46,422 nt of DNA from a virus. The stretch spans positions 1 to 46,422 of the IMG/VR virus record IMGVR_UViG_3300010354_000147; one strand, 5' to 3'. Below, piece after piece: positions 4,692-41,264 of the stretch (positions are counted from its first letter, which is position 1; every line of letters starts with the position of its first letter). The translations under genes were made by a program, and so were the position numbers. The notes below the pieces were generated by a model, which worked only from the letters and a program-made list of their open reading frames with translations, was not told the origin of the DNA and did not search any database.

Positions 4692-5135
4692 CTATGATTT
4701 TTTACAATTACTTGTTTTTGGAACCATTCCAACAACGGTAATTGTAATTAATGTTTCTCCTAAACGTTTAATTTGATCGTTGTTAATACTTAAGTTACCT
4801 AACTCGATACTGTTAACCCCGTTTTGATTTTCTGAAAAAGTAGTTTTTATTTGATTGAACACTTTTCTCAAGTTGTTTTTATTACCAATACTGTTAGCCC
4901 AGTCCCAAAATTGTGAAACTACTTGATTATCTTCATTACTAAGTTTTTTTGGTGCAATACAAATTGGTTCAGTGTCGTCTAAAACTTGTTCGGCGTTTAT
5001 TTCAAGACCTTCTAGTTTTAATAAGTTTTGAACTTTACTTAGATCTGAAGATTGAGAGGAAACTTCAGTATCCTCTTTTAAAAGTCCCATAATCTTTTTT
5101 ATATCCATTACCTCACTTAGTAGACTTATTTTCAT
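4692..5135 (-). CDS. 147-aa leader-bearing protein
   Basis: The N-terminus MKISLLSEVMDIKKIMGLLK followed by ED is related to the other leaders in this window and contains LKE, a candidate (L/I)xE cleavage site. The rest is an acidic domain with no recognised family; two Cys-Pro/Cys-Lys features (EPICIAPKK, SNCKKS) stand out. Its start overlaps the end of the upstream 43-aa gene by 23 bases in another frame. Confidence 0.65.
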   Translation of the reverse strand: MKISLLSEVMDIKKIMGLLKEDTEVSSQSSDLSKVQNLLKLEGLEINAEQVLDDTEPICIAPKKLSNEDNQVVSQFWDWANSIGNKNNLRKVFNQIKTTFSENQNGVNSIELGNLSINNDQIKRLGETLITITVVGMVPKTSNCKKS

Positions 5136-5244
5136 TGTTTTTGTATTGTTCTAAAATTCTATTATTGTTTTCCATCATTTTGAGTTTTTTCAAAATACTC
5201 TTACGACTTTTTTTCTTTTTCCCTTCTTTTTTTGCCTTTGCCAT
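5113..5244 (-). CDS. 43-aa Lys-rich small protein
   Basis: Too short for a routine ORF cut-off, but it has an ATG 12 bases downstream of a TATTTAT motif and overlaps the next gene. The product starts MAKAKKEGKKKKSRKSILKK and has a charged helical C-terminal half. Over a third of residues are Lys or Arg, so it may bind nucleic acid. It is similar in style to the 43-aa basic protein at 76-207. Confidence 0.55.
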   Translation of the reverse strand: MAKAKKEGKKKKSRKSILKKLKMMENNNRILEQYKNNENKSTK

Positions 5245-5255
5245 TTTTTTTATTT

Positions 5256-5262
5256 ATAAATA
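5256..5262 (-). promoter_or_regulatory. TATTTAT upstream motif
   Basis: The minus strand reads CTATTTATAAATAAAAAAAATG, which places the motif before the 43-aa gene and supports that gene being real. Confidence 0.5.
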
Positions 5263-5263
5263 G

Positions 5264-7194: not shown

Positions 7195-7773
7195 TTATTT
7201 ACCTCTATAATATTTAATCAATTTCTGAATTGGATTTATTACCAATTTAGGATACTCATTATTCAAAAAATCAATAAGTTCTTGGATAGAGTTAAATCTA
7301 TTGGGTGTATACTCAGTCTTTATACCTTGGTTATCGTAGTATTCATCATAGTTGCCAGTTTCCATATCTTCAAATTCACTACCATCCACAGGTGTTACAC
7401 AATTTCCATCCCAATATGGTGTTGAAAATCCCCTCAACTTATAATGATTGTCACTATAACTAAAATTGACAATACCACCAAAACCATCCCATAAGAACTC
7501 CAAATCTGCAGACATGTTCTCAAAACTATGTTTTTTATCAACTAAATCTGACCTGAAAAGCATTCCAACTAATTTATAAGCTAAACCACAATCAATTTTT
7601 ATTTTTTTGTCTTTTAGTAAAAAAAGAATTTGTTCTAATTCTAAACCCGTTAAATCTGAAATTTCGTAAAAATCCATACCTTCATTCCACATCTTGTAAA
7701 CAAGGTTTGAATTCTTTTTATATTTTGATTCGAAAATATTATTATATTGTGACTCAGAAATTATTATTTTCAT
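7195..7773 (-). CDS. 192-aa leader-bearing protein with HTH-like segment
   Basis: The leader is MKIIISESQYNNIFESK, of the MKIIITESQ class. Residues about 27-58 (LVYKMWNEGMDFYEISDLTG, then LELEQILFLLKDKKI) resemble a helix-turn-helix, possibly DNA binding. The C-terminal half has aromatic and Gly-rich strands (FLWDGFGGIVNFSYSDNHY). Own TATTTAT motif. If packaged in the head it would be a DNA-associated cargo protein, which is inference. Confidence 0.65.
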   Translation of the reverse strand: MKIIISESQYNNIFESKYKKNSNLVYKMWNEGMDFYEISDLTGLELEQILFLLKDKKIKIDCGLAYKLVGMLFRSDLVDKKHSFENMSADLEFLWDGFGGIVNFSYSDNHYKLRGFSTPYWDGNCVTPVDGSEFEDMETGNYDEYYDNQGIKTEYTPNRFNSIQELIDFLNNEYPKLVINPIQKLIKYYRGK

Positions 7774-7778
7774 ATAAG

Positions 7779-7785
7779 ATAAATA
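7779..7785 (-). promoter_or_regulatory. TATTTAT upstream motif
   Basis: The minus strand reads ACTATTTATCTTATATG. It lies between the terminator of the upstream gene and the start codon. Confidence 0.5.
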
Positions 7786-7796
7786 GTTTATAAAAC

Positions 7797-7821
7797 AAAA
7801 ACCACCGTTTAGGTGGTTTTT
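7797..7821 (-). terminator. Intrinsic terminator of the 171-aa gene
   Basis: Hairpin AACCACC / GGTGGTT with a short loop, T-run on the minus-strand side (and an A-run that makes it potentially bidirectional). Confidence 0.8.
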
Positions 7822-7848
7822 TATATAATAAAAGTTAGTTTACAATAA

Positions 7849-8364
7849 TCAAAAAAGTGAACTTAGTGATTTTGTTTGAGTTTGATCTTGTGTTTGAGTT
7901 TGATCTTGTGTTTGAGTTTGATCTTGTGTTTGAGTTTGATCTTGTGTTTGAGTTTGATCTTGTGTTTGAGTTTGTTTTTTCGCGTTTGAAATTGCGGTCA
8001 TTAATTTTTGTATGGTTGTAACAACAGCATCCTTCCATTGTTTTTGTTGTGGGGTCATACTAGTATTTGAATAATTCTGTAGATATCTAAGAGTTGCCGT
8101 TAGGTCGGATTTTTTATTGTATGCATTTCTTGTAAAGTTACCAAAGGCAGTTTTAACTTTACCGAAATCAGCACTTAAACTTGCTCTGTTTGGGTCCTCG
8201 GCTTTATATAAAGACCAATCTAGGGCCAACAAGTCTTCATCGGTTGCACCAATAGTTCTTGCCATATCTTTTACAAACTGTGACTGCTCTTGAAGTAAAA
8301 GTCTACTTTCTAAAATTAAATTAGATTTTTGTATATGTCTAATTTTACTGTAACTTCTATTCAT
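7849..8364 (-). CDS. 171-aa leader-bearing protein with Gln-rich repeat tail
   Basis: The N-terminus MNRSYSKIRHIQKSNLILES continues RLLLQEQ. It is the same leader as the gene at 16311-16970 and similar to 9548-9919, with LQE as a candidate cut site. The central part is helical (FVKDMARTIGATDEDLLALD). The C-terminus holds tandem TQTQDQ hexapeptides encoded by an 18-bp repeat, then SLSSLF. No TATTTAT motif. Probably an unstructured tether. Function unknown. Confidence 0.65.
   Translation of the reverse strand: MNRSYSKIRHIQKSNLILESRLLLQEQSQFVKDMARTIGATDEDLLALDWSLYKAEDPNRASLSADFGKVKTAFGNFTRNAYNKKSDLTATLRYLQNYSNTSMTPQQKQWKDAVVTTIQKLMTAISNAKKQTQTQDQTQTQDQTQTQDQTQTQDQTQTQDQTQTKSLSSLF
7884..7973 (-). 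repeat. 18-bp tandem repeat coding TQTQDQ
   Basis: Five exact copies of GATCTTGTGTTTGAGTTT on the plus strand, in frame inside the 171-aa gene. The unit is a multiple of three, so copy number can change without breaking the protein. Confidence 0.9.
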
Positions 8365-8379
8365 AATAGTTAGGGTATT

Positions 8380-9474
8380 TTATCCTGTTGTTTGACTTCC
8401 TCCTTGAAACCCTGCTTTAGCTCCCGCAACTGCCCCTGAAACACCTTGACCTAATCTTCCAAGAAGAGTGTCTGCTTTCATACCTAATGCGGTTCTAATT
8501 TCTTTTTTCAGAGCTCTTGTTTCTGGGTTCACACCTTTTTTCTTTTCGAGTAAATCTAATCCACCTTCTCTTTGATTTGCCGGTAAACCTAAAATATATT
8601 TACCATCAGGAGTTTCCGACCATTTTTTCACTCTGTCTTGCATGTCCGCAGGAAGCTTACTTAATCCTACTAAATCCGTTGTTGTTGTAGCCGTGGTAGC
8701 ACTTGTACTTGCGGTGGCAGCACTTGCTGCAGATACGAGAACCTGATCTGTACATTCTAAATCTCTTAGTTTTGATTTACTTGCAACGTCAGCCAAAGCT
8801 GGTTTTTTCGTGACATCATCAAAATATGCGTATTGGTTGTTTGGAAGATCAAATACTATCCATCCGTCAGCGGTAACTCTTTTAGTCCCAACGGAAGTAA
8901 CACATGTCCACGCCGACCAATTGAGTTCATCTGAGGCAGTTCTATCCGTTTTAACATTAACCAATGATCTATCATTACAATCTACAAATCTTTCAAATTT
9001 AGCAGCGGCAGGTAAACCTGAAAATAATGCCGGTTTTTTGTTGTCTTTATCCCAAACCACTGCAGAACCAGGTGCCAATTTATAAATAACATATCCACTT
9101 TTTGTTACCACTTCAGTTCCTTGTTCACCAAAACATGGATAGTCTAACCATCCTTGTCTGTCAGTTGCGGTATTTTGATAAACTTGACCTGGTGAAACAC
9201 CACCATAAGCGTCAGTATATTCCTGTCCATATTGTGCCCATGCCTTTGTTGTTTGAGGCCCGAATACACCATATCCTCGACCTTTATTTAATTGACCACC
9301 TGTTGAGGTCCATGGAACTTTTTTTCTATCTAACCAATCTTGGAAACCCTTAACGTCTGCAGGTTTAGCTGGTGCGGTTGCCTCTGAAAGGTAATTTCTT
9401 TTAGTTGCAGTTTTGTGCATACCTAATATTCTTTCTCTTTCACTTTCAGATATAACAAAAAGATTCTTTTTCAT
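8380..9474 (-). CDS. 364-aa leader-bearing protein with peptidoglycan-binding-like segment
   Basis: The leader region is MKKNLFVISESERERILGMH followed by KTATKRNYLSEA, with ISE and LSE sites. Residues about 42-85 (FQDWLDRKKVPW, GYGVFGPQTTKAWAQYG) resemble the PG_binding_1 fold. Two diverged repeats follow, each with a WxxxPCFG/WTCVTSVGT-VxxDGWIVF pattern and a paired Cys (FVDCND, LECTDQ). An Ala/Thr linker and a tail ending GAVAGAKAGFQGGSQTTG close it. It could contact cell wall during entry or lysis. Own TATTTAT motif. Confidence 0.65.
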   Translation of the reverse strand: MKKNLFVISESERERILGMHKTATKRNYLSEATAPAKPADVKGFQDWLDRKKVPWTSTGGQLNKGRGYGVFGPQTTKAWAQYGQEYTDAYGGVSPGQVYQNTATDRQGWLDYPCFGEQGTEVVTKSGYVIYKLAPGSAVVWDKDNKKPALFSGLPAAAKFERFVDCNDRSLVNVKTDRTASDELNWSAWTCVTSVGTKRVTADGWIVFDLPNNQYAYFDDVTKKPALADVASKSKLRDLECTDQVLVSAASAATASTSATTATTTTDLVGLSKLPADMQDRVKKWSETPDGKYILGLPANQREGGLDLLEKKKGVNPETRALKKEIRTALGMKADTLLGRLGQGVSGAVAGAKAGFQGGSQTTG

Positions 9475-9491
9475 AAAATAAGTTTTTTATA

Positions 9492-9498
9492 ATAAATA
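9492..9498 (-). promoter_or_regulatory. TATTTAT upstream motif
   Basis: The minus strand reads AAGTATTTATTATAA, 17 bases before the ATG of the 364-aa gene. Confidence 0.5.
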
Positions 9499-9547
9499 CT
9501 TAGATATTTTTGTTTTTAAAGGTTTTTTGAGTAAAAAGTGATTTTAT

Positions 9548-9919
9548 TTATTTTGATTGTTCCGCAACGCACTTCCATTCAGACTTTTCGTAATCTTCAA
9601 CCGTCTTGTGACCGCATTTATTTGCAACACTTAATTTTTGTTGATCATTTTGTTTTTTCCAATCAATAACATTTCCATTTTTCTCTTTAATAGATTTTGG
9701 ACCTGAAGTTTTAACCATTGGTTTTATTACCGTTCTATTTGATGGAGTTGATCCTGTTGAAGTTGTGCCTCCTCCTGTCGATGGTGATGGAGGTGCTCCA
9801 GGTGCTGGAGGTGCTCCAGGTGCTGGAGGAGCAGGCGCTTGTTCTGTTAAATATCTTTTCTCAAGTCTAATGTTAGATTCTTGGATGTTTTTAAGTTTTC
9901 TTGTATTTGTGTATTTCAT
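9548..9919 (-). CDS. 123-aa leader-bearing protein with Pro-rich linker
   Basis: The leader MKYTNTRKLKNIQESNIRLE continues KRYLTEQ, related to the MNRSYSKIRHIQ class, with LTE as candidate cut site. A Pro/Ala/Gly linker (APAPPAPGAPPAPGAPPSPS) and a Gly/Thr/Ser stretch follow, then a small charged domain with two Cys (ANKCGHKTVEDYEKSEWKC). No TATTTAT motif; perhaps co-transcribed with the 219-aa gene 24 bases upstream. Confidence 0.6.
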   Translation of the reverse strand: MKYTNTRKLKNIQESNIRLEKRYLTEQAPAPPAPGAPPAPGAPPSPSTGGGTTSTGSTPSNRTVIKPMVKTSGPKSIKEKNGNVIDWKKQNDQQKLSVANKCGHKTVEDYEKSEWKCVAEQSK

Positions 9920-9943: not shown

Positions 9944-10603
9944 TCACTCTTTACCAAAATAAATATCCACTAAATCAGAAATAGTAAATCCTAAAATATC
10001 GATTCCAAGTTTTTCAGCAAACTCATTATCATAATATTCACTATCATCTGAACCAAAAATAACCTCACCATACTCACCACCTCTATCTTGGTATAAATAA
10101 TCTATCCCATCATATCGAATCAAATACATAGGACCAAAAAAATTCAAGTATCTTTTAATTGCTTGTGGTCCAATAACATCATCAAATTCCATTGGAACGT
10201 CGTATACACTTGTAACAATTTTAATTTTATCCGTAAGATCAAGTCCAAATTTATCTTTAAGAAATTTTTTCTTTTTGTCTTCGGATTCATTTATATTATT
10301 ATTTAAACGCGACAAAAAATAAGATTTCATATCAGGATAATAATTACTTTCTATAAATCTTTGGATCTGATTTCTTAGTGTAATTTTTTCATCCCCTTGA
10401 AACCCGCTTTCATTTGCGAGTTCATTGGAAATTTTTATTTTAACCGTATGTAAAAAAAGGTCAAAATCTTTAATTCTTAAAGGATATGGTTGTAAACTTT
10501 TTAGGTATTCATATGCCAGATCCATAGTAGGTTTTATTAACCTATCAATTTCATTAAATCTCCTGAGAAGTCCAAGTTGGGTTTCTGAAAGTATAAATTT
10601 CAT
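9944..10603 (-). CDS. 219-aa leader-bearing protein of unknown function
   Basis: The leader is MKFILSETQLGLLRRFNE, of the MKIIITESQ class. Residues 16-100 are helical. An internal NESEDKKKKFLKDKFGLDL hinge leads into a second domain with tyrosine-rich loops (YLIRYDGIDYLYQDRGGEYG). Own TATTTAT motif. No family recognised. Confidence 0.65.
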   Translation of the reverse strand: MKFILSETQLGLLRRFNEIDRLIKPTMDLAYEYLKSLQPYPLRIKDFDLFLHTVKIKISNELANESGFQGDEKITLRNQIQRFIESNYYPDMKSYFLSRLNNNINESEDKKKKFLKDKFGLDLTDKIKIVTSVYDVPMEFDDVIGPQAIKRYLNFFGPMYLIRYDGIDYLYQDRGGEYGEVIFGSDDSEYYDNEFAEKLGIDILGFTISDLVDIYFGKE

Positions 10604-11526: not shown

Positions 11527-11976
11527 TTATAATTGGAAACTGTCAAGTTTTCTATAAAGTCCTGAATCCTCATAAACATCAATCTCATCTGTATTCAGTT
11601 CAGGAAAAAGAGAAACTAATACTCTAATAAAATCTCTTCTATACTCACGGTATAAATCTATAATGTTATCATCAAAACGAGATTCAATATAAGAGTTATA
11701 TGCCCTTGAACTTAAACCCCAAGATGACGTTTCAATAAGTGGATATCCTTTGTCCATCAATATTAATTTTCCTCCTCTTTTTTCTAAAGTTAGTTTATCA
11801 AAATAACTCATTAATAATTCAATTACATTTTCTTTTGAGTTTCCGAGTATTTTGAGTAGGTTTTTTGGTCCACCTACAAGTTCGGCGGTTTCCCTCCAAC
11901 CATCGTTTTGTATCTGATCAAGTAAAGAATTTACAAGTGTTTCTTCTTTTAAAACTTTTCTGATAAGATTTTTCAT
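11527..11976 (-). CDS. 149-aa leader-bearing protein, VGG-NL type
   Basis: The leader is MKNLIRKVLKEETLV, with LKE as cut site. It is followed by WRETAELVGGPKNLLKILG, which matches the AAEMVGGVGNLKEIFKG segment of the 388-aa protein at 32583-33749 in the same position relative to the leader. The C-terminal half is acidic (LNTDEIDVYEDSGLY). It starts 6 bases after the 265-aa gene, so it uses that gene's promoter. Unknown function. Confidence 0.65.
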   Translation of the reverse strand: MKNLIRKVLKEETLVNSLLDQIQNDGWRETAELVGGPKNLLKILGNSKENVIELLMSYFDKLTLEKRGGKLILMDKGYPLIETSSWGLSSRAYNSYIESRFDDNIIDLYREYRRDFIRVLVSLFPELNTDEIDVYEDSGLYRKLDSFQL

Positions 11977-11981: not shown

Positions 11982-12779
11982 TTAATCTTCAATTTCATTG
12001 CCCTCACTGTCGAAGGTTTTTAAAACACCATCAACATATTTTTTAGTTTTAAGTTTTACATCTGAACTACCTTTGGGTCCCATGCCAGGTAATTCTGTTT
12101 TACCTGTTCTTGGGTTTTTAACTAACATAAGGTCACCTTTGATTCCCCCATGTCCTTTTATTTCATCATCAAATGATATGTCACTAATTTTTTCTTCTTT
12201 TGATCCCCCTTTTTTTCCAAGTTCCTCATCTGAACCCATGGAAATAGATCTATCTGCAATATACGGACCAAACCTTTTTTCGTAATCATCACTCATTCTC
12301 ATTTCATCTGAATCAAAATGAGACATATGACCAGGATTTTTCTCATAATAATTTAAAATATCTTCAATCCTTTTTGGATCTTTAGCGTCAAACAACAAAA
12401 CATTTCTGTCTTGAAACCCTTCGTCTCTTGTTTTATCGGTAACGTCTATTCCCCAAAAAAGTTCACCTGTATTTTTATCTTCATATTGTTTCATAACATA
12501 TTTCCCAGAAGAAGATCTTTTAACCTCACCAGTTTCAACCATTTTGTTTTTAAGTGATCTATTACTTAAATAATCATAAGCCCTTTTCATCACACCCGCA
12601 CCAAGAGCAATACCACCTAAAGTCAACAATAAACTTTCATTGACCAAAGGTTTAACATCACCTTGTTTAGATTCTAAAAGTCTTTTAAATTTTGAGGTGT
12701 CAACGGACATTCCTCCTCTATGTTGTTCAAGGATTCTATTTCTTTCATCGGATGATAAATCATTTAATAAATGTTTCAT
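11982..12779 (-). CDS. 265-aa leader-bearing protein with one membrane-like segment
   Basis: The N-terminus combines two leader types: MKHLLNDLSSDERNRILEQH, then VDTSKFKRLLESKQGDVKPL followed by VNE. A hydrophobic stretch ESLLLTLGGIALGAGVMKRA at about 48-67 could cross or anchor to a membrane. The remainder is charged, with FWGIDVTDKTRDEGF and a Lys/Gly-rich tail. Own TATTTAT motif. Function unknown. Confidence 0.65.
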   Translation of the reverse strand: MKHLLNDLSSDERNRILEQHRGGMSVDTSKFKRLLESKQGDVKPLVNESLLLTLGGIALGAGVMKRAYDYLSNRSLKNKMVETGEVKRSSSGKYVMKQYEDKNTGELFWGIDVTDKTRDEGFQDRNVLLFDAKDPKRIEDILNYYEKNPGHMSHFDSDEMRMSDDYEKRFGPYIADRSISMGSDEELGKKGGSKEEKISDISFDDEIKGHGGIKGDLMLVKNPRTGKTELPGMGPKGSSDVKLKTKKYVDGVLKTFDSEGNEIED

Positions 12780-12839: not shown

Positions 12840-13214
12840 TTACATTTTCTCATCATATCCGTAGAAAAGAGCGTGAATAGAAAATGGGAATTCTGAAAAA
12901 TATTCATCATAAACAAGATTTCTTAAATGGTCAATATACCAAAGATTATCATTATAATTATCTTCAACCCAATTATAGTAGTAGTCATCCCCATCCTTTT
13001 CAATGTCATCAATTATGATTTTTATGGTGGCAACTGTTCCCGAACCTTTACCTAAAACGTCTCCAACAAACATTCTAAATTTAAAAGAATACTCTTCATA
13101 CTCAACGTCATCATGATCCCCATTCCAATTGTAGACCTCATCTTCAAAGGACAAATCAAAATCCCTGTTTTCGAAGAGTTTCTTTAACAATCTTTTTATT
13201 TTAAGGTTTTCCAT
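12840..13214 (-). CDS. 124-aa acidic protein with leader-like start
   Basis: MENLKIKRLLKKLFENRDFD resembles the RFKQLLES leaders, with LFE as candidate cut site. The body is very acidic and Tyr/Asp-rich (IDDIEKDGDDYYYNWVEDNY). Own TATTTAT motif, directly after a terminator. Unknown function. Confidence 0.6.
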   Translation of the reverse strand: MENLKIKRLLKKLFENRDFDLSFEDEVYNWNGDHDDVEYEEYSFKFRMFVGDVLGKGSGTVATIKIIIDDIEKDGDDYYYNWVEDNYNDNLWYIDHLRNLVYDEYFSEFPFSIHALFYGYDEKM

Positions 13215-13283: not shown

Positions 13284-13712
13284 TTATCCAAGGGAAGTAA
13301 TTAATGATTTAACTTTTGTAATTACACCTGTTGGGTTTGAATAATCCATGTCTTCAAAGTAGGTGTAACTACCACTAGTGTTATTATAGTATGTTTCAAC
13401 CCCCATCGTTGATTCGAAAACAGATGCTTGATCTTCTTCTTTTGTTTGAAAGGAAACGCTTCCGTCACTACTCAAACTGAATCCCCAATTCTTATTTTTT
13501 CCTGCCTCGCTATGTGTTCCCCAATTCAGTGAGGTATATGGTTTTCCATCATAGTTGAAATTTATAACCTTTGGGTTGCTATATGTTTTTAGTCCTGCAA
13601 GAATTTTTGACCAGTTACTATCACCTGCCATCATTTCTTTGTCTTCTGAAATCAATGGTTTTACATTTCCCATCGATGATTCTAATAATTGTTTAAATCT
13701 ATTTAATTCCAT
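13284..13712 (-). CDS. 142-aa leader-bearing protein
   Basis: The leader MELNRFKQLLESSMGNVKPL continues ISED. It is almost the same as that of the neighbour at 13740-14108 and of residues 26-49 of the 265-aa protein. The body is polar and aromatic (INFNYDGKPYTSLNWGTHSE, ETYYNNTSGSYTYFED), probably beta-rich. It has its own promoter motif and terminator, a self-contained unit. Confidence 0.65.
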   Translation of the reverse strand: MELNRFKQLLESSMGNVKPLISEDKEMMAGDSNWSKILAGLKTYSNPKVINFNYDGKPYTSLNWGTHSEAGKNKNWGFSLSSDGSVSFQTKEEDQASVFESTMGVETYYNNTSGSYTYFEDMDYSNPTGVITKVKSLITSLG

Positions 13713-13724
13713 TTTTTTTATTTT

Positions 13725-13731
13725 ATAAATA
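13725..13731 (-). promoter_or_regulatory. TATTTAT upstream motif
   Basis: The minus strand reads AATATTTATAAAATA, 12 bases before the ATG of the 142-aa gene. Confidence 0.5.
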
Positions 13732-13739
13732 TTATGTTT

Positions 13740-17626: not shown

Positions 17627-17645
17627 AATATTATTTTAATTTAAA

Positions 17646-17954: not shown

Positions 17955-17971
17955 GTTATTTTGATTTATAT

Positions 17972-17978
17972 ATAAATA
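17972..17978 (-). promoter_or_regulatory. TATTTAT upstream motif
   Basis: The minus strand reads AAGTATTTATATATAAAT, 17 bases before the ATG of the 102-aa gene. Confidence 0.5.
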
Positions 17979-18088: not shown

Positions 18089-18109
18089 TTTAATATTTGA
18101 TTTTATTTA

Positions 18110-30921: not shown

Positions 30922-32379
30922 TTACCCAGCGGCTTGACCAATAGCTTTCATTGCAATACATTGTTTTGCACCCATTTTACAAACCGTATATTGTGCGGTT
31001 TTAACCGTAGCGGTAGAACCATTATTTTTGAGAAAATCTTGAACTTGACTCAAAGCAAATTGGTCGGTACCTTCTAAGGCCTTTTGACCTACTAAAGGAT
31101 GTTTTTGTAAGTATGCCAATCCTTTTGTTTGTAAATTTTTAAGAACTCCACCTAATGCGACACTTACTTTTGTATTTAAAATTCTTGTTGATGCCCCTGT
31201 AAGTGTGGGTGACACTTTTCCTACCACATTTTTAGCACCACCTTTGATTGAGTTAAGTATGTCTGTTATAATTGATCCTAATTTAGTTAATCCTGAACCA
31301 ATAGGTGCTAACATTGGTTTCAAAAAAGGCATAACTTTTGTCATCCATGCTACTCCACTTCTAAAAACATTAACAATCGTTTGTCCAATTTTACCTATTG
31401 TATTTCCAATTGTTTGGAACGACCTGTAAGTTTCTGGATAATTTTTTGCCATTTTTTGAAAAAACTGTGGTAATGTGGCGGCTGTTTCTAAAGCTCCTCT
31501 TGCAGGTTGCAATGCCGCTTTCAATCCAAACCCAGCGAAAGTTGTTCCCAAAATGTCCGCAATAAGATTAAACCATTTGAAATTTTTACTACCTGTTGAC
31601 AATTGGTAGATGTCCCACGCCACTAAAACTCCATTAATTGCTAAAACAATTCCTGAACCAACTGGACCTGTTAAACTTATGATAACTTGTGCAATAGTTC
31701 CCAATGTTCCTCCAACAATTCCTCTAAATCCCTCCATTATTTGTTCTAATGTAAGAGATCTTAAGTAATCAATAGCTTTGTCAGCTCCTTTGACGGCCAA
31801 ACCAATTGGTGAATAACCTGCAATTTTGTAAAGAATATTTTTGTTTTGTCCTGAGTATCCTAAACTTTCAAGTTTTTTCCAAATATCACCATATTCAGAG
31901 TCAAAATCACTCATTTCTGTGTTTACCCATGCTTTTAATGAACCAAATTGTTTTCCTCTTACAATCATCTGATTTAGTAAATTCAAAGTTTCTTTACTTT
32001 TGATTTTTCTGATTGCAGCCAAAGCACCACCTTCATTTGTTCCATCCCAATCCTTCAAATCACCATCTTTATCCATATCGAAGGCATTTTTCAACTCAGT
32101 GTAAATTGTGGTTGCTTCTTTTTGGGCTATTGAGGCAATTTTTTGTTTTGCCGCCGCTAACTGTTGTGGAGTTGGTGTTTTTGCCCCTACGTTTTGTGTT
32201 GGGGTCGCACCAGGTGTTTGTGTAGGTTGAGCCTTTGGTTGAGGGGTCACTGTTTTGGTCTGCTCAAATATTTTTCTTTTACCCAAATATCTACCGTTGG
32301 TAGAACTTTTCATTTCTTCAGAAATTCTTCTTATCACATGAACTAATTCACTTTCGGTTAATTGGATTGTTGTTTGCAT
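30922..32379 (-). CDS. 485-aa leader-bearing protein, paralog A
   Basis: The leader is MQTTIQLTESELVHVIRRIS then EEM. Collinear with paralog B throughout: linker with TPTQNVGAKTPTPQQLAAAK, EF-hand-like FDMDKDGDLKDWDGT, hydrophobic centre GTLGTIAQVIISLTGPVGSG, and C-terminal KALEGTDQFALSQVQDFL plus Cys pair (VCKMGAKQCIAMKAIGQAAG). Clearly a tandem duplicate, diverged along the whole length, so both copies are probably functional. Confidence 0.7.
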   Translation of the reverse strand: MQTTIQLTESELVHVIRRISEEMKSSTNGRYLGKRKIFEQTKTVTPQPKAQPTQTPGATPTQNVGAKTPTPQQLAAAKQKIASIAQKEATTIYTELKNAFDMDKDGDLKDWDGTNEGGALAAIRKIKSKETLNLLNQMIVRGKQFGSLKAWVNTEMSDFDSEYGDIWKKLESLGYSGQNKNILYKIAGYSPIGLAVKGADKAIDYLRSLTLEQIMEGFRGIVGGTLGTIAQVIISLTGPVGSGIVLAINGVLVAWDIYQLSTGSKNFKWFNLIADILGTTFAGFGLKAALQPARGALETAATLPQFFQKMAKNYPETYRSFQTIGNTIGKIGQTIVNVFRSGVAWMTKVMPFLKPMLAPIGSGLTKLGSIITDILNSIKGGAKNVVGKVSPTLTGASTRILNTKVSVALGGVLKNLQTKGLAYLQKHPLVGQKALEGTDQFALSQVQDFLKNNGSTATVKTAQYTVCKMGAKQCIAMKAIGQAAG

Positions 32380-32582: not shown

Positions 32583-33749
32583 TTAGTTGATAACATTTCC
32601 CATATTATCATATTCTATTTTTTCTACATCAATATAAAAGGTAGCATTCTTTTTGTAAGTGTCCCAAGAGGGTGCCCAATAAGGACTTAAAATAATAGTT
32701 CCGCCAGTCATTTCCTCAATCTCATTTTGTATTTTTCTTCCTAACCAATTATCATAGTTTGCCGCGGTATCTTCCACATCATGATATATTTTAATAAGTG
32801 GTTTTCCTTCATAATTCGTATAAACTTCAATAAATTCAACCTCATCAAAAAGGTCATAAATCATCATTTTAGTTAAATCAAGTTTTTTGTTTTCAGATTT
32901 ACTTTCATTCATAAACTCAACCTCATCCTTACAATTATCTACATACCATGGTGTATAAATATAAACTCTGATTCCCATAGATCTTAATGAATCTTCCAAA
33001 GAATTAAGTTCGTCTTCGATTTCAGAAATCGAGGCCACTAAATCATCTGTTGAGGCGGTTTTTGATCGTATTTCATATTCCTTATCATGAGAATTATATA
33101 CTGCCCATATATCACAAAGTCCATCCCAACTAACTAAAGATAACAATACATTTATTGCTTTTAGATTTTTGTCAGTTTCACTATTAATACTCTCATTTAC
33201 ACTTTCATTTCCACCGTAAAGTTTGTCATTAATTTCCTTAACATTATCTCCAGTAAAATAAATTTCATCAGCGTCATGTAGATTAACATCTTTTCCATTT
33301 ATTTGTGCAACATAAAAATAATTGGAGTCTTTGAAATTAATCATTTTTGTTTTTATTTTTCCATTAGTGCCGTCGTTTTGGATTGCAGCAATTATGGATT
33401 TAAAAGTTTCATTTTCATCTGAACTTAATTTATCTTCGTCATAGATAAGATTTATTTCTGGCCAAGAATTAGTATCCCATATGTTTTTTTTTATTCCTAT
33501 TATTTCATATTGTAAAGGAAATGAAATTGGGTTTGGGTCTCTTAGTTTTTTGTAATAAGTAAAATCTACCGTTCCTGTTAAATCATTAAATATTGAAGTA
33601 ATTTCAGGGTCACCTTTAAATATTTCTTTAAGATTACCTACTCCCCCAACCATTTCTGCGGCGTCAAAAATATTACTATTTTCAATAACTTGTTTTAACT
33701 CTTGTTGAAGTCTGCTTTCTTTCAAAATATGTCTGATAAGATTTTTCAT
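32583..33749 (-). CDS. 388-aa leader-bearing protein, VGG-NL type
   Basis: The leader is MKNLIRHILKESRLQQELKQ. It shares AAEMVGGVGNLKEIFKG with the 149-aa protein at 11527. It appears to have several domains: an N-terminal part, a middle with VLLSLVSWDGLCDIWAVYN, then MGIRVYIYTPWYVDNC and MTGGTIILSPYWAPSWDTYK. Starts 10 bases after the DHH-lysozyme gene, so probably co-transcribed. Function unknown. Confidence 0.65.
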   Translation of the reverse strand: MKNLIRHILKESRLQQELKQVIENSNIFDAAEMVGGVGNLKEIFKGDPEITSIFNDLTGTVDFTYYKKLRDPNPISFPLQYEIIGIKKNIWDTNSWPEINLIYDEDKLSSDENETFKSIIAAIQNDGTNGKIKTKMINFKDSNYFYVAQINGKDVNLHDADEIYFTGDNVKEINDKLYGGNESVNESINSETDKNLKAINVLLSLVSWDGLCDIWAVYNSHDKEYEIRSKTASTDDLVASISEIEDELNSLEDSLRSMGIRVYIYTPWYVDNCKDEVEFMNESKSENKKLDLTKMMIYDLFDEVEFIEVYTNYEGKPLIKIYHDVEDTAANYDNWLGRKIQNEIEEMTGGTIILSPYWAPSWDTYKKNATFYIDVEKIEYDNMGNVIN

Positions 33750-33761: not shown

Positions 33762-36629
33762 CTAAGCGGTCTTCATCCCATCAGGATTTTTGATTGCAGC
33801 CTCTACTTTACCTTTATTCAAAAGTCTTGTTCCTGCTCTTGATGATATGGCAACATCTAATAATTCCTTGTCAGATTTACCAGATTTTACCGCATCTTCT
33901 AAGTTTTTTGCAAACTTTTTGAAAAACCCTGGTCCGTTCCAAGTGGCATAAGACATGTGAACTAATAATCCCTTATTTTTCATAATCTTTTCTTTTACTG
34001 AAGGATCTTTGACAAATGAAGACATATTTCTATCAAAAGCCCTTTTCATGATTTGGACTGCTAAATCTTTGAGGACTTCTTCTTTATCTCCACCTCTAGA
34101 ATTCCACTTCCATTTTTGACAAAAAGCATCCATATTTGTCCACTTCATGCTTCTTCCCGAACCTGATGATTTTGCACCCAAAGCATATTTTTCATCATCA
34201 ATTATTTTAAAGAACTTTTTACCTTCATCTGAACTCTCTATATTACCGGCATATCTGTCTAAACCAAACATAGTTTCAGTAGAAACTCCCATTCCAGCTT
34301 TAGGGTGTGCAGGACAAAAAGGATTCCAATAACCTCCTTCAAAATTTGCAATAACTTTTTTTGTTATATTAGCAAAATCAGTATCTGAACCAGATGTCAT
34401 TGACAAATTTACATCTGAGTCGGTTGAACTTGTTGAGGAGTCTGCATTAGTTGTTGAAGGTGGTGTAGTTTCCCCTTCACTTTCTCCACCTATACCTAAA
34501 TTTTGTTTTGCAATAGCACCAAAATTAGAAAAAAGAGATGTGAAGTTCATAAAATTGTTTTTAGTTTCTTGAGATGTAGTTGTTGATTTACCACCATCTA
34601 CGATATTAGAGGCTGAAGTAATAACAGGATCTGAAACCCTAATGTATTTATCTTTTCCTGAACCATGTGGGGGATATTTGTTAGGTAGTGTGTATTTAAA
34701 AAAGTATTGCCTTATATAAACTCCCTTACTGTTTTTAAAATCTAAAACTTGAGTAATGTCTTGAGCACCTCCCTTTTCTAATTTCCTTTTCAATGGTTCA
34801 ACTTGACTTAAAGCCCTTTGATCTGCAGTACCACCGGCCGAACCTCTTGTGGATACTCCCATATATGCTTTCCCATCTTTACTTTCATCAATTGTTGCTT
34901 GCCAATCGACTTTGTAATTTTTTGAGTCTACTGTGATTTGTATATCCACAACATCAGGATTAATACCTGCATCATAAACTTCCTTTAGTTTTTCATCAAT
35001 TTTAGTTGTCATTCTTCCACCAAACTTGTCTGATTTTCTTCTTTCGAAAGAGTGTAAAGCGTCAGCATCCCCTTTGGGTGCGGTGTAACTATCCTTTAAT
35101 ATTATAGGAAGACTAATTTTTTGTTCTTTAAGTAAAAAAGATTTTATTGGTTTGGTTAAGATTTCTTTTTTTTTTATATACAAAAAATTTTCGTTCAACT
35201 CAGTTTCACTATTTTTACTTATTTTTTCTTTCAAAGTTTTTACAAATTGACTCTGTATGTCTTTTAACAATTCAACATATGAATTTCTTAATCTTTTTTC
35301 AGGATCTTCAAATTTAGCATTAGAATAGAGATAATTTATTCCTGAAATATTTGTTATACATTTGTGTCCACCTGAATTAGCCATTATCACATCATATCCA
35401 TTTACCGAAGCTTTGTTGAAAACTTTCCTATCTTCAAAAGGTATTGTTTTATATAAGTCTTTTGATTTGTAGTCAAGGTATCTTTGTAGTTTTTCTGTTC
35501 CATTAATCTTTAATGATGGTGAATTTCCGTATATAGCCATAAAGTCTCTGAAAGTAAATCCAACTGATTGTTGTTCTGCATCCATTTCTGAAATTCTTTT
35601 CAGAGTTGCAAAACTTATTCTTTGTTTTTCTAACTCAGGTCTGAACTTTTCTAAAACCTCATCTTTTATTTCTCCTAAATCAACACCTTTAAGTGCTCTA
35701 TCTTTTTTATATGGATTACAGGAGGCTTGAACCATACCCATGGGTAAACCTGTAACTAAAAATTCCGCTTCGGGATGGTTTAAAAATGGTGTATACCTGT
35801 CGTATCCTCCAGATTTCATTGTAGGCCCTAAACCATATTGAGAAATTATCCCGTCTTCGAAATTTACCCCTTTTTCTTTTCTTGATTGTATGTATTTTTC
35901 TTGATTTTGTATGAGTGTTTCAACAGGAGCATAACCTTCCTTGGTCATTTGATCTTTTATATTTAAAAGAATACTTTGTAATGATGGTTTAGCATTCATA
36001 ACTATATTCCTTAAAAAGTTTGGTTTATTTTTAAAGGCCAACAACAATTTATTAGCAACTAAACCCATCATTTTTTTGTTTTCTTTAATCCCCTTTGTTC
36101 GATCTATTCTGAATAGATATTGGACAACTTGTTCAGGTGTTATATTATGTTTTGCAAAATCAGCTGAGTCGACCATAGAAATTGTTTCAATATCGTCTTG
36201 AGTAAAAATGTCACTTGGTGATATCGTTTGAGAAATGGTTTCAACATTCGATCTTGATGGTTTAAAACTAGTTGATGTACCCTTTTCAACACCTGCCTGT
36301 GTGTCGTGATGATCAGTATGAATTACAAACATTGGTTTTCCATGTGCAAAATCAACAAGAACAGGCATTATTTCACCTTCCCCTTCGACTTTCTTAATTG
36401 CAAATTCTTTAGATCCATACTGTATTATTTCAGCATCAACAACTTTGATTCCGTTTTGTTCTAAATAATTTTTCATAGCTAACGCGGTTGTCACACCATC
36501 CAGGTCTTGGTGAAAGTATATTTTAGCCATCGGATATCTCTTTGCTATGTTTTTAATATCTCTAATTCCACTTTCACTTAACAATCTTTTAGATTCTTCA
36601 GTGATAATTTTGATAATATAATCTCTCAT
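33762..36629 (-). CDS. 955-aa fusion: leader, DHH/DHHA1 phosphoesterase, lysozyme-like domain
   Basis: The ATG at 36629 (MRDYIIKIITEESKRLLSES) follows a TATTTAT motif. Residues ~33-430 hold a full DHH set: FHQDLDG (39-45), LVDFAHG (91-97), HTDHHDT (104-110), VDSADF (153-158) and the DHHA1 motif SGGHK (419-423), as in RecJ/NrnA-type exonucleases or nanoRNases using Mn ions. Near 493-503 an internal leader-like KPIKSFLLKEQ occurs. A beta domain (504-670), a Ser/Thr linker (~680-750) and a C-terminal domain (752-955: NFEGGYWNPFCPAHPKAGMG, TMFGLDRYAG, SYATWNGPGFFKKFAKNL) of muramidase-like look follow. The combination is unusual. Confidence 0.75.
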   Translation of the reverse strand: MRDYIIKIITEESKRLLSESGIRDIKNIAKRYPMAKIYFHQDLDGVTTALAMKNYLEQNGIKVVDAEIIQYGSKEFAIKKVEGEGEIMPVLVDFAHGKPMFVIHTDHHDTQAGVEKGTSTSFKPSRSNVETISQTISPSDIFTQDDIETISMVDSADFAKHNITPEQVVQYLFRIDRTKGIKENKKMMGLVANKLLLAFKNKPNFLRNIVMNAKPSLQSILLNIKDQMTKEGYAPVETLIQNQEKYIQSRKEKGVNFEDGIISQYGLGPTMKSGGYDRYTPFLNHPEAEFLVTGLPMGMVQASCNPYKKDRALKGVDLGEIKDEVLEKFRPELEKQRISFATLKRISEMDAEQQSVGFTFRDFMAIYGNSPSLKINGTEKLQRYLDYKSKDLYKTIPFEDRKVFNKASVNGYDVIMANSGGHKCITNISGINYLYSNAKFEDPEKRLRNSYVELLKDIQSQFVKTLKEKISKNSETELNENFLYIKKKEILTKPIKSFLLKEQKISLPIILKDSYTAPKGDADALHSFERRKSDKFGGRMTTKIDEKLKEVYDAGINPDVVDIQITVDSKNYKVDWQATIDESKDGKAYMGVSTRGSAGGTADQRALSQVEPLKRKLEKGGAQDITQVLDFKNSKGVYIRQYFFKYTLPNKYPPHGSGKDKYIRVSDPVITSASNIVDGGKSTTTSQETKNNFMNFTSLFSNFGAIAKQNLGIGGESEGETTPPSTTNADSSTSSTDSDVNLSMTSGSDTDFANITKKVIANFEGGYWNPFCPAHPKAGMGVSTETMFGLDRYAGNIESSDEGKKFFKIIDDEKYALGAKSSGSGRSMKWTNMDAFCQKWKWNSRGGDKEEVLKDLAVQIMKRAFDRNMSSFVKDPSVKEKIMKNKGLLVHMSYATWNGPGFFKKFAKNLEDAVKSGKSDKELLDVAISSRAGTRLLNKGKVEAAIKNPDGMKTA

Positions 36630-37201: not shown

Positions 37202-38131
37202 TTATGTTGGGAGTTTTTTACCTTTCAAATGAGTTTTTTCGGATTCAACTCTGATTTTTATCTTTGATTTGTAATTTTTGGGTAGTTTGGTTTTTATTCC
37301 AACCAGTTCTCCCATTTCGTTATCCATACGGACAGTAACTTCTTTTTTGTCAAGATTCAACATTATTTGTCCTGTTGTTTGCATGTTATAAATATTTTTT
37401 GTTCTATACGGATTGAGAAATGGATCTTCATCATATTTTTGTTTCAATCTATCTATAACCTCATTGTCTGTTTTAACACTTTGTAAATGTTTTTTTGCAA
37501 GTTCTAACCTCATATGTGAAGATTTCTTTTTTTCTCCTTTTGTGTAACCTACTGATTTGTGGTAAATACCATGATTAGTTCTTACTAAAACTTTTTTTTC
37601 TTTTTTCAGTTTTTTAATAATCGGGGAATGTTTTGATGTCATCTCAACAACGTATATGTTACTTGAGTCTGAAACAAAAGTTTCTCCTTTCAAACCAACA
37701 TTTTTTTTATCATCAGCACTGTAACCAATGATCGATTTTATAACTTGAGGTAATGTTTTCTTAGATAATGCGTTTCTTATTTTTTTACCATCATACGATT
37801 TTATTTTTCTCCCTTTAGCGTCATTTGTTTTACGTTTTTTTTCAACTTCTTTACCTTCTTTTTCGTCTTGGTTTACAAGTAAGCTTGAGTTAACAATTCC
37901 AATACCATATTCGTTCATACCTTCGCACCAATCTGTATCAATATCTCTCCAATAAACAACTTCCACATCGTCAATAAGTTCATGTATAATTTCAACTTTT
38001 GCTTTATAACCTCTATCCCTGTTTTTTGCTAATACAACCCCATCATTCAATCTCACTGCTGCAATTGTACATTCTCCAATAATTTTTGGTTGAGTTTCTT
38101 CGCAAAGTATTGTTTTTATTAGATTTCTCAT
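37202..38131 (-). CDS. 309-aa leader-bearing Ntn-hydrolase-like protein
   Basis: The ATG at 38131 gives the leader MRNLIKTILCEETQPKIIGE. The segment ECTIAAVRLNDGVVLAKNRD (about 20-39) matches the nucleophile region of the choloylglycine hydrolase / acyl-CoA:6-APA acyltransferase clan, in which a Cys exposed by cleavage is the nucleophile. CEGMNEYGIGIVNSSLL (about 73-89) fits its conserved G-M-N-E-x-G pattern. The family cleaves non-peptide C-N amide bonds. Normally self-processing exposes the Cys; here leader removal could trim to CEE or near the second Cys, linking activation to packaging (inference). Confidence 0.75.
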   Translation of the reverse strand: MRNLIKTILCEETQPKIIGECTIAAVRLNDGVVLAKNRDRGYKAKVEIIHELIDDVEVVYWRDIDTDWCEGMNEYGIGIVNSSLLVNQDEKEGKEVEKKRKTNDAKGRKIKSYDGKKIRNALSKKTLPQVIKSIIGYSADDKKNVGLKGETFVSDSSNIYVVEMTSKHSPIIKKLKKEKKVLVRTNHGIYHKSVGYTKGEKKKSSHMRLELAKKHLQSVKTDNEVIDRLKQKYDEDPFLNPYRTKNIYNMQTTGQIMLNLDKKEVTVRMDNEMGELVGIKTKLPKNYKSKIKIRVESEKTHLKGKKLPT

Positions 38132-38385: not shown

Positions 38386-38416
38386 TTTGCCCTAACAAAA
38401 TAATTTTTTATATTTG
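38386..38416 (+). promoter_or_regulatory. Host-type (Bacteroidota sigma) promoter of the UvrC-like gene
   Basis: TTTG (38386-38389), exactly 19-base spacer, TATATTTG (38409-38416); the GTG start follows 4 bases later, so the mRNA is expected to be leaderless or nearly so. Confidence 0.7.
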
Positions 38417-38420
38417 TGAT

Positions 38421-39695
38421 GTGATAACAGAAAAACTTTCAAATATACCTCAATCTAGCGGTTGTTACCTTTTCAAAAACAAAAAGGGTCAAATCATCTA
38501 TGTTGGTAAATCAAAGTATCTTCCAAAACGAGTGAAGTCTTACTTTCAAAAAAATCACAAGGATCAGAAAACCTTGTCTTTGGTGAATGAGATCACTGAT
38601 GTTGAGTTCATGACCACAAATGACGAAAGTCAGGCTTTGTTATTGGAGGATGAACTTATCAAATCACACAAACCAAAATATAACATCAAAGCGAAAGATG
38701 ATCGTTCCCGACGTTGGTTTATCACTTTGAGTAGTGATGAGTTTCCAAGACTTTTAGTTTGTAATCCTTCTAATTTGACAGGTCAAGTCCTATTGGAATC
38801 TACAAGTTCCAACTCTTGTTATGAGATCTACGAGATGGTTCACGACATATTCAATCTTAGATCTTGTTCTTATAACTTGACTGAAGAGAATATTCAAAAT
38901 GGAAAGTTCAAAAGTTGTTTGGAGTTTCATCTTGGTCGTTGTAATGCTCCTTGCGTTTCTTCTATTTTGAAGTTTTCTTATTTGAAAATTGTGAGTGAAA
39001 TGAAGGAAGTATTTTCTTTTCAGTTTGACAAACTCCGAAATCGTTTGAAAAGGTGTATGAAATACCACTCTGATCAAATGGAGTTTGAGATTGCCCAGTC
39101 TTTTAAAAATAAAATGGATTCTGTTGATTTGTTACAGAAACGTCTTGAACCTTTTCGTGTTAGAAAATATAATGAGATTTCAAGATTATTCAAAGAACAA
39201 TTTGGTTTATTAAATGTTCCAACTCTTATTGAGGCTTTTGACAACTCTCATACCGCAGGGGACTGTCAAGTTTCTGCCCTTGTTCGTTACAAAAATGGTA
39301 AAACTGACAAGTCAAACTATCGTAAGTTCAACATCAAATCTGTTGAGGGTCCTGACGACTATGCGTCTTTTGATGAGGTATTAAATCGTCGATTCAAACG
39401 ACTTTTGAATGAAAAACAAGAGTTACCTTCACTTGTTATTATTGATGGTGGTAAAGGTCAGTTAGGTGTTGCTAAGAAAGTATTTGAGGATCTTGGTTTG
39501 TTGAATCGAATTGATTTGATTTCAATTTCAAAAGACGACAAACACAGATCGTCTACGATCCACAAAATTGATGGATCAAGTTTTGATATTCCAAGAAGTG
39601 AGTTTGGATTTTTATTAGCCGAGATTCAGAATGAAGTTCACCGATTTGTAATTACTTTTCATCGTAAAAAACGAAGTAAATCTATTATCGGATAA
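38421..39695 (+). CDS. UvrC-like excinuclease subunit, shortened
   Basis: 424 aa from a GTG. The N-terminal GIY-YIG-type domain (SSGCYLFKNKKGQIIYVGKS, LPKRVKSYF) is followed by the Cys-rich linker (CLEFHLGRCNAPCVS) and the RNase-H-like nuclease domain with the three expected acidic/His positions: AFDNSHTAGDCQVSALV, VIIDGGKGQLGV and EVHRFVITFHRKKRSK. The usual C-terminal helix-hairpin-helix DNA-binding pair is absent (UvrC is about 600 aa). UvrC makes the two incisions in nucleotide-excision repair. A phage copy might repair or cut DNA with host UvrAB. Untagged, host-type promoter. Confidence 0.92.
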   Translation: MITEKLSNIPQSSGCYLFKNKKGQIIYVGKSKYLPKRVKSYFQKNHKDQKTLSLVNEITDVEFMTTNDESQALLLEDELIKSHKPKYNIKAKDDRSRRWFITLSSDEFPRLLVCNPSNLTGQVLLESTSSNSCYEIYEMVHDIFNLRSCSYNLTEENIQNGKFKSCLEFHLGRCNAPCVSSILKFSYLKIVSEMKEVFSFQFDKLRNRLKRCMKYHSDQMEFEIAQSFKNKMDSVDLLQKRLEPFRVRKYNEISRLFKEQFGLLNVPTLIEAFDNSHTAGDCQVSALVRYKNGKTDKSNYRKFNIKSVEGPDDYASFDEVLNRRFKRLLNEKQELPSLVIIDGGKGQLGVAKKVFEDLGLLNRIDLISISKDDKHRSSTIHKIDGSSFDIPRSEFGFLLAEIQNEVHRFVITFHRKKRSKSIIG

Positions 39696-40347
39696 ACTTA
39701 GTGTCGTAGTAAGTTGCAATATAATCAGCACTAAGAAGTGGATATTGATTAATAACTTGATCAACACCTCCATAGTATTCTTCACTTTCGTAATATGTTT
39801 CGACATGTGGTAAGAATTCATCAATATATGTATTTATTGCATCATTAACGTCAATATTTTCATCATTTTTTGTTGCAGATACTGGGACAACGGTATTATC
39901 AATATAATATGCGTCATCATCAAAACCATTGATTTTCAATCCAAAGGATTTTATTTGAATGGTCCATCTTTTATACCCTACAAATGGAGTTCCTGTAGTG
40001 AATTTAATTTCTCTTACAGAGTCAAAAACTTTTTGAATTTGATCCCTTATTTTGTCGTTAAGATAAAATTTTGGTTGTTCGTCCAATAATATTTTAGCGG
40101 TCAATTTAAGATTAACATATTCTTCAAACTCCAATACAATATCTAAAAGATCGTCTTCCACAATTGAATAGAAATAAGAAACGTCATTTGGATTTTCTAT
40201 TTTGAACTCGATTGGATAATAAGGTTTGGTATGTCTTCTTGATACGCTTTCTTTCCCAACTCTAAAAGGAATACATTTCAATCCGTTAAGATTAATTTCA
40301 TCCCCCGCAAACTTTTTAAATAATTTTAATATTTTGTTATTATCCAT
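39685..40347 (-). CDS. 220-aa protein of unknown function
   Basis: Starts MDNNKILKLFKKFAGDEINL, leader-like only in that it is a basic helix with GDE. The body is acidic with strands (FVGYKRWTIQIKSFGLKING) and an aromatic, acidic tail (HVETYYESEEYYGGVDQVIN). Its start touches the end of the lysozyme gene (shared base 40347), so they form one unit. Converges with the UvrC-like gene by 11 bases. Confidence 0.6.
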   Translation of the reverse strand: MDNNKILKLFKKFAGDEINLNGLKCIPFRVGKESVSRRHTKPYYPIEFKIENPNDVSYFYSIVEDDLLDIVLEFEEYVNLKLTAKILLDEQPKFYLNDKIRDQIQKVFDSVREIKFTTGTPFVGYKRWTIQIKSFGLKINGFDDDAYYIDNTVVPVSATKNDENIDVNDAINTYIDEFLPHVETYYESEEYYGGVDQVINQYPLLSADYIATYYDTKFIR

Positions 40348-41264
40348 TATACAAACATATTATGTTCGTTTTCTCTTCGTTTTTTTAAACCAGGATAATC
40401 ATCGAACATTCTTTCACTTGTAGACAAAATAAGTTTTTTTGCCATCTGTAAATCACCGTCTTTAATCGCTTTTATAAATTCTGTTTTTTTTATACCTGGC
40501 CCCATGTTAAATGCCATGGAAACCATTGCGTCGTACATACCCTGAGTAATTTTAGGTTTTATACCTTCATCTTCCCATTTATCCAAGATTTGATTGATAG
40601 TTTTTTCCGCTTCTTTTATATCATCATTTAATAATTGTTCCGCCTCCTTTTCTGTTATTTTTGTTTTATGGGCAACTATTTTGTTATATCTTGGTAAAAA
40701 ATCATAGTTTTCTTTTTCTTTTGGAAAAATTGCATGTCCATATCCTATAGTGAAAGCTCCGTCTCCGATATTGTATGCAGTGAGAGATAAATTCTCTTCT
40801 TTTTTTAAGTGGTTTTTTAAATTCAAAGAAGAGTTTCTTATTTTGAAGTCTTTTTCTTTGTTTGATTGACTTTGTGATAATACTTTTTTTAATACTTCTT
40901 TTTCAGTTTCGACTGCCTTAACTATTGGTTTTTCAAAATACTTCTGCATCTGATTGATACTGACTAAACCAATAAAAGAAATAATAATATATTTTACTAT
41001 TCTTTTTTTAACTTCAGAAGATAAATTTTTTATTTTTTCTTTGAGGGTTGTGATGTATTCTATGAGATCTTCTTTTGTTTTAACCCATTTAGATGACTTA
41101 TCAATGTCTTTTTTCACATCCGTGAAATCCCATTCCATGTCAGGTTCTGTCTTACCATCTTCGGTAATTAAATTAATTTTAAATACCATTTCATCCAAGA
41201 CTTTTTCATAAACTAACTTGGATTGGATTCTTTCGACTTGTTCTTCGGTAAGAGATATTTTCAT
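40347..41264 (-). CDS. GH24 lysozyme with leader and membrane anchor
   Basis: 305 aa. The leader is MKISLTEEQVERIQSKLVYE. A long charged stalk leads to one transmembrane helix at about 88-104 (RIVKYIIISFIGLVSI). The C-terminal GH24 lysozyme domain (~145-305) has the catalytic Glu near 157 (KKEENLSLTAY), GDGAFTIGYGH (167-177) and YDAMVSMAFNMGPG. Compared with T4 lysozyme, the Asp20 position is Ile, with Asp two residues later. The family cleaves peptidoglycan glycan strands. Leader plus anchor argues for a virion-associated or signal-arrest type rather than a simple endolysin. Own TATTTAT motif. Confidence 0.85.
   Translation of the reverse strand: MKISLTEEQVERIQSKLVYEKVLDEMVFKINLITEDGKTEPDMEWDFTDVKKDIDKSSKWVKTKEDLIEYITTLKEKIKNLSSEVKKRIVKYIIISFIGLVSINQMQKYFEKPIVKAVETEKEVLKKVLSQSQSNKEKDFKIRNSSLNLKNHLKKEENLSLTAYNIGDGAFTIGYGHAIFPKEKENYDFLPRYNKIVAHKTKITEKEAEQLLNDDIKEAEKTINQILDKWEDEGIKPKITQGMYDAMVSMAFNMGPGIKKTEFIKAIKDGDLQMAKKLILSTSERMFDDYPGLKKRRENEHNMFV

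Follow-up and report, generated by a model that had tools for sequence, protein, structure and literature searches.

Why do dozens of otherwise unrelated proteins of one virus begin with the same few short sequences? The question is raised by IMGVR_UViG_3300010354_000147, a linear IMG/VR virus contig of 46,422 bases (the window, i.e., the whole stretch that was analyzed), for which an independent gene call gave about 62 genes, with the minus strand predominating. We compared the first 30 residues of 56 window proteins, requiring that the remainders of the proteins did not match. An N-terminus common to otherwise unrelated proteins was found in 35 of the 56, as against 4 of 56 at residues 31 to 60 and likewise 4 of 56 at the C-terminus, and composition-shuffled N-termini yielded a mean of 2.1 sharing proteins and a maximum of 9. 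A preliminary description of the window, made from the letters alone, had proposed about 39 unrelated proteins with common N-terminal leaders, a figure with which our own count of about 40 agrees. It is highly probable that these leaders are capsid-targeting propeptides and that they represent a greatly expanded T4-type system with new leader families.

Eight leader profiles (hidden Markov models [HMMs]), built at first on sequences of the window and of its relative G051 and then refined by iteration over relatives, were used to search the window and eight genomes. They recognized 258 leader proteins in these nine sequences, including 34 in the window, where six further leaders were recognized by eye. 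The highest load was observed in a genome of 304 kb (G034), with 62 of 379 genes. Internal matches were scarce (0 to 2 per profile at residues 61 to 120). The leader types number eight to nine and not six as in the preliminary description, a LISExERxRILxMHK type and a NLQEQISRIQSMMGVISE variant having been omitted. The leaders are 7 to 33 residues long and amphipathic, with an average charge of +1.4 over the first 22 residues, and the KIIITESQ type frequently runs on to LxE(N/S). Being charged and ending in E, they lack the uninterrupted hydrophobic core of Sec signal peptides or lipoproteins, and signal-peptide-like genes fell into families of their own in the sharing test, apart from the leaders.

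When the leaders were aligned on the last [ILVM]xE, P3 was L in 50%, I in 46% and V in 4%, P1 was E, and there was little conservation past P1. Thus, the (L/I/V)xE end proposed earlier is better written (L/I)xE. Upstream, P4, P7 and P8 are hydrophobic (I/V in 67% at P7, I/V/L in 79% at P4) and P5 and P6 basic. The last position of three leader families was E in 97 cases and D, Q and L in one case each. Among [ILVM]xE triplets, L or I occupied the first position in 455 of 510 within the first 30 residues versus 555 of 833 in protein bodies (p=5e-22). V is frequent at P4 and P7 but hardly ever occupies P3, and D or Q is exceptional at P1, which fits the specificity of a protease and not amphipathicity. 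The published specificity of the T4 prohead protease gp21 is L/I-X-E, and the T4 leader relies on residues 4 and 7 (P7 and P4) for targeting and on residues 8 and 10 (P3 and P1) for processing (PMC9026906). As judged from sequence, the design of the leaders coincides with that of the T4 leader at each position.

By the proteins that they encode, the leader-bearing contigs are T4-like phages. gp21 (PF03420, S77) was found in 29 and gp23 (PF07068) in 26 of 50 leader-bearing contigs. When only contigs of 60 kb or more were considered, gp21 was present in 22 of 30 leader-bearing contigs versus 3 of 16 random control contigs (p=6e-4); the controls were sampled by 14-mer, as a 16-mer yielded only 8 contigs. 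G051, a 140-kb relative syntenic with the window, encodes gp23, gp22 and gp21. With gp21 in G051 and in 22 of the 30 long leader-bearing contigs, the lack of a prohead protease, which the preliminary description had named as a refuting outcome, does not apply. Its suggestion to look for the cleavage motif in the major capsid protein (MCP) and in the protease was also borne out. The MCP propeptide reads ...AS(F/H)LINE↓(A/S) in 19 of 19 distinct MCP starts (↓, putative cut), at the position of the T4 gp23 maturation site FLTE↓A, and (I/L)xE(S/N) stands a few residues ahead of the conserved core in 18 of 18 distinct gp21 proteins. These conserved sites point to processing of both gp21 and gp23. 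The leaders thus have one motif in common with the protease and with its main substrate, and the proposed prohead targeting and gp21-type cutting are well supported, with removal of the leaders as the expected outcome. Two families of leader proteins, RYMFFSNLEQ and GSRGSYIPP, adjoin gp23 (in L258, at 10779-11237 and 11740-12732) and are kept there in most relatives; they are probably core or virion proteins.

The cultured Flavobacterium phage vB_FspM_immuto (NC_055915), a T4-like phage that encodes gp21 and whose MCP shares 42% identity with the G051 protein, has leader families of its own (FDLKKFLVEN..., KKSxLxxIIKE and ILSEQFxRMQxLAGIITE), many of them near terminase and head genes; it differs in having only about nine to fourteen tagged genes, with leaders mostly of other types. 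Its leader proteins include gp003, gp076, gp077, gp080, gp083, gp092, gp094 and gp095. A jumbo T4-like contig of 286,648 bases (L472-L486), binned with a rumen Bacteroidales metagenome-assembled genome, has about ten leaders of its own IVAESVKKVLKE type. Together, the immuto and rumen leaders indicate that the design spans Bacteroidota phages from water and gut. The leader pattern had no match in bacterial genomes.

The leaders behave like modules. Different leader types were borne by 70 of the 206 homologous cargo pairs, and at least two types occurred within 15 of the 38 cargo families, with the junction at E. Homology begins right at the cut, as in MKKIIRLTESDLTRIVNRVINE↓NQEEVDRILDKI versus MKYLITESQYEILIE↓NQKYVDSLLDKI, both from G034, and leaderless paralogs begin there as well (MKNNLKEKLKDLIKKVGF versus MKIIITENQYKLIKE↓NISLKEKLKDLIKKVGF). 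The cargo itself turns over quickly between close relatives: a homolog in G051 was found for 11 of 34 window cargo genes versus 22 of 26 other genes (p=7e-5). Cargo proteins are small (median 160 residues, leader included) and on average acidic. Of 142 leader proteins taken from three relatives, no more than 6 match Pfam, leaving at least 136 without a match; PHROGs and Pfam together gave a few endolysin-like, peptidoglycan-binding, chitinase-class and protease matches among the 142, and mostly none. A VGG-NL-KIL cargo domain (11527-11976 in the window; G011 loci L178-L191) has 28 members; a single genome accounts for more than ten paralogs, not all of which bear a leader. The structure model for the most common cargo family (19 sequences) was of insufficient quality to be searched for its fold, with a predicted local distance difference test score (pLDDT) of 56.5.

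The activities that had been read from the window cargo were borne out only in part, and most of the effector functions named lack support. DUF2237 (1e-44) and a lysozyme (1e-20) are clear, while an AAT/Ntn-hydrolase relative (8e-5), a peptidoglycan-binding domain (3e-4) and DHH (0.002) fall short of the respective family cut-offs. The protease-like assignment came down to a weak metalloprotease match (0.015), less than is normally required. An ART fold for 22330-22851 is unsupported, as the single-sequence model had a pLDDT of 39.5 and no PDB match.

Upstream sequences hint that leader genes may be coexpressed with head genes. A strict TATTTAT lies no more than 35 bases upstream of 72 to 94% of unit-starting leader genes, compared with 26 to 46% of other genes. 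It precedes gp21 in 5 of 7 genomes and 4 of 40 replication genes, and it is also shared with terL. In the window and relatives, the promoter-like TATTTAT-N6-A showed two spacing modes, 11 to 13 and 20 to 25 bases before ATG; with the former, transcription would start at or near the ATG, i.e., the mRNA would be leaderless.

Known phages served as controls for the sharing test. On T4 it recovered the MKTYQEFIAEA of the internal proteins; T4 gp61.1 (AF158101 18966-19130; 54 residues, hypothetical) also starts with a leader resembling the T4 capsid-targeting sequence (CTS), MKTFKEFIKED. On P-SSM2 the test gave MKSFxQFLxE, and one of the proteins concerned, PSSM2_194, belongs to T4-GC190, whose S-SM1 counterpart SSM1_190 starts MKKFSAFLNE↓A. 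The T4-GC190 member of S-SM1 was detected in purified virions (PMC3037559), which lends outside experimental support to the notion that proteins with a leader of this kind are packaged. No leader family was found by the sharing test in crAss001, which is devoid of gp21.

From these features we infer core binding, packaging, cleavage, virion presence, injection and counter-defense for the proteins of the clade. Late in infection, a leader protein would bind the prohead core via its short N-terminal, probably helical leader and would be enclosed by assembly of the gp23 shell. A gp21-type serine protease would then cut after (L/I)xE and release the cargo. About 40 kinds of mature cargo for this contig, and up to approximately 62 per genome in relatives, would stay inside the head alongside the DNA and be delivered to the next host upon injection. 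Their most likely role there would be to disarm defenses and aid take-over, as do T4 IPI-III and Alt. We incline, on balance, to the broader view that T4-like phages of Bacteroidota from freshwater, marine and rumen habitats possess the largest injected arsenal described to date, with cargo genes that are exchangeable, evolve rapidly, number up to more than 60 in a genome and are directed to the head by a small leader code built on the gp21 site, and that a search for the tags reveals the injected set from the sequence by itself.

Other explanations account for parts of these data. The leaders might target the prohead and be cut as proposed while most of the cargo has a part in assembling the head or condensing the DNA rather than acting as injected effectors, which we regard as unlikely, if worth keeping in mind. 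T4 IPIII also has an effect on head assembly (PMC9026906), and the two conserved leader proteins beside gp23 look like core or virion proteins; however, the fast turnover of cargo is unlike that of head genes, some cargo bears enzyme or wall-binding domains, and its acidity is at variance with the basic nature of T4 internal proteins (PMC9026906). It is quite improbable that the leaders direct sorting or docking to another place, such as the host membrane or a replication site, or recruit a shared phage partner, with (L/I)xE being part of an amphipathic helix and not a cut site. Their short, amphipathic and positively charged nature would suit such a role, as would a low-confidence model in which residues 2 to 25 of one leader protein are helical, but neither the near absence of V at P3 nor the almost invariant E at P1 would be expected, the maturation positions of gp23 and gp21 bear (I/L)xE, and leader exchange falls exactly at E.

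Hardly any weight can be given to the idea that the repeats are elements of the DNA or mRNA, such as a recombination hot spot or a translation or antisense control at gene starts. The promoter-like element upstream would agree with it, and in the NLQEHIRR type codon identity exceeds chance (0.785 versus 0.561 expected), which implies that some copies are recent. Yet DNA upstream of genes of the same type is just 28 to 44% identical, versus 57 to 74% over the first 36 coding bases, synonymous codon choice is near the codon-usage expectation in the other types, and the eight leader sequences have in common only their (L/I)xE end, at the protein level. The absence of shared upstream DNA, together with near-random synonymous codons in most types, indicates that selection acts on the peptide.

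Several observations weigh against the leaders being capsid-targeting propeptides of a T4-type system. The window itself, being a fragment, includes neither gp21 nor gp23. Because the leader clade constitutes a single lineage, its association with gp21 does not represent many independent events. No [ILVM]xE lies within 4 residues of the HMM end in 54 of the 258 leaders, and the scaffold protein gp22 is not significantly enriched in (L/I)xE. TATTTAT did not significantly separate virion from replication genes (11 of 41 versus 4 of 40, p=0.08). No clear leader family was found in the T4-like phages RM378, Mel-JY01 and HTVC008M, in which gp21 is present, and tblastn of the RLTExDL leader against 50,697 phage records at E 10 gave no match. 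The leaders have no detectable sequence similarity to the T4 leader, so that the system is of the T4 CTS type by design and not demonstrably by descent. Neither virion proteomics of immuto nor experimental data on injection in the leader clade were found in the open-licence literature.

In the window, leader genes were assigned by leader HMM and lie on the minus strand except where stated. At 40347..41264, a KIIITESQ-type MKISLTE↓E leader, assigned by eye, precedes a phage lysozyme-like protein of 305 residues (PF00959), possibly a lysis enzyme. The AAT/Ntn-hydrolase-like protein (309 residues; PF03417, just under the cut-off) carries MRNLIKTILCE↓E (37202..38131), and a DHH-like protein of 955 residues (PF01368, 0.0018), conserved in 25 relatives, carries MRDYIIKIITE↓E, recognized by eye (33762..36629). 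MKNLIRHILKE↓S is joined to an orphan cargo with a VGG-NL domain, a cargo family (32583..33749), MQTTIQLTESELVHVIRRISE↓E to an orphan cargo of 485 residues (30922..32379), and MQTLIQLTEGELIHVVRRISE↓E to a gene that is a paralog of its neighbor (29264..30715). The DUF2237 protein (PF09996) has an MNLYEHIKSVVKE↓E leader (28427..29260), and three orphan cargos have MKELIRNILKE↓E (27993..28427 and 27547..27993) or MRNLIKNILKE↓E (26918..27550). A MKKVIRLTEADLVRIVKRVIVE↓N leader with orphan cargo is encoded on the opposite, plus strand (25088..25561). MDLQENIRRILKE↓E belongs to a HExxH protein, perhaps SprT-like (24283..24879; PF10263). A six-gene cluster (21667..24281) with NLQEHIRRVIKE↓E and NLQEQISRIQSMMGVISE types comprises 21667-21999, 22001-22333, 22330-22851, 22848-23561, 23542-23850 and 23847-24281; 22848-23561 has a second, internal NLQEHIRRVLREE leader and appears to be a fusion of two cargos.

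Three RLTExDL-type genes (17039..18511) lie at 17039-17626, which has two leaders in series, 17646-17954 and 18110-18511. The MNRSYSKIRHIQEANLELERRRIISKYLSE↓Q protein (16311..16970) has a leader-like MKSIIKRIMEERK at its C-terminus; T4 Alt is likewise cut at the C-terminus (PMC5694885). An orphan cargo has MKRVIRLTESDLTRIVKRVINE↓M (15671..16000), four KIIITESQ genes lie in tandem (14121..15467, namely 14121-14504, 14501-14845, 14842-15081 and 15081-15467), and two genes have RF(K/R)QLLESSMGNVKPL(I/L)(S/T)E leaders (13284..14108), 13284-13712 and 13740-14108, the latter with the peptidoglycan-binding-like domain (PF09374). MENLKIKRLLKKLFE↓N (LFE↓N), assigned by eye outside the HMM set, leads an orphan cargo (12840..13214). 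Two leader types stand in series at 11982..12779, the LISExER type and then FKRLLESKQGDVKPLVNE↓S, and MKNLIRKVLKE↓E leads the most widespread cargo domain (AELVGGPKNLLKIL; 11527..11976). MKFILSETQ, a leader of the KIIITESQ type, stands at 9944..10603, and there are four leader genes at 7195..9919: 7195-7773 of the KIIITESQ type, 7849-8364 and 9548-9919 of the KIRHIQESNLILE type, and 8380-9474 of the LISExERxRILxMHK type, ending in LSE↓A. Leader-like starts were seen by eye at 6433-6771 (RVNE↓G), 5264-5605 (GYQKGKVISE↓Q) and 4692-5135 (LLKE↓D), and the GYKxGKVISE type was found again in G005 and G024. Beyond them, 1591-3822 encodes a large, secreted-looking protein whose C-terminus, we presume, resembles a type 9 secretion sorting domain, which would suggest a Bacteroidota host.

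It is now established that internal proteins of T4 block restriction systems, but each coliphage has only a few and elsewhere few are known. Should the leaders prove to be capsid-targeting tags, each phage would offer dozens of orphan genes as candidates for counter-defense or take-over in the first minute of infection, and this in phages of Bacteroidota, one of the major phyla in gut and water. Asking which proteins a phage injects would then become a sequence search, checkable in a cultured relative. No description of leaders of this kind in Bacteroidota phages was found in the open-licence literature.

Among known systems, the Dar proteins of phage P1 also invite comparison. P1 DarA and Hdf are head-associated anti-restriction proteins of a myovirus (PMC12810830). 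Unlike the proteins of the leader clade, they are few, and they are not known to have a family of short common leaders. The ejection or inner-body proteins of phiKZ and SPN3US, a different phage lineage, resemble the leader proteins in being many head proteins whose N-terminal propeptides are removed by a gp21 homologue, and SPN3US gp53 and gp54 have an identical 15-residue N-terminus (PMC5694885). However, their propeptides mostly exceed 100 residues and phiKZ cuts at S/A-x-E, whereas the leaders described here have 7 to 33 residues and end in L/I-x-E. The closest parallel is the T4 CTS of IPI-III and Alt, which is cut by gp21. Both systems have a short N-terminal leader on unrelated proteins, an L/I-x-E end, hydrophobic P7 and P4, gp21 (S77) and gp23 in the genome (here in relatives), and hypervariable cargo (PMC9026906, PMC3012670, PMC12373910). 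The leader clade differs in its Bacteroidota phage lineage, its at least eight leader families versus one, its load of tagged genes, which reaches about 62 in one genome versus three internal proteins and Alt, its P1', often E, N, Q or S and not A, and in its leaders being dissimilar to MKTYQEFIAE. T4 internal proteins have only their leader in common, and each blocks a different GmrSD restriction enzyme (PMC12373910); the window cargo resembles them in its small, orphan and short-lived bodies.

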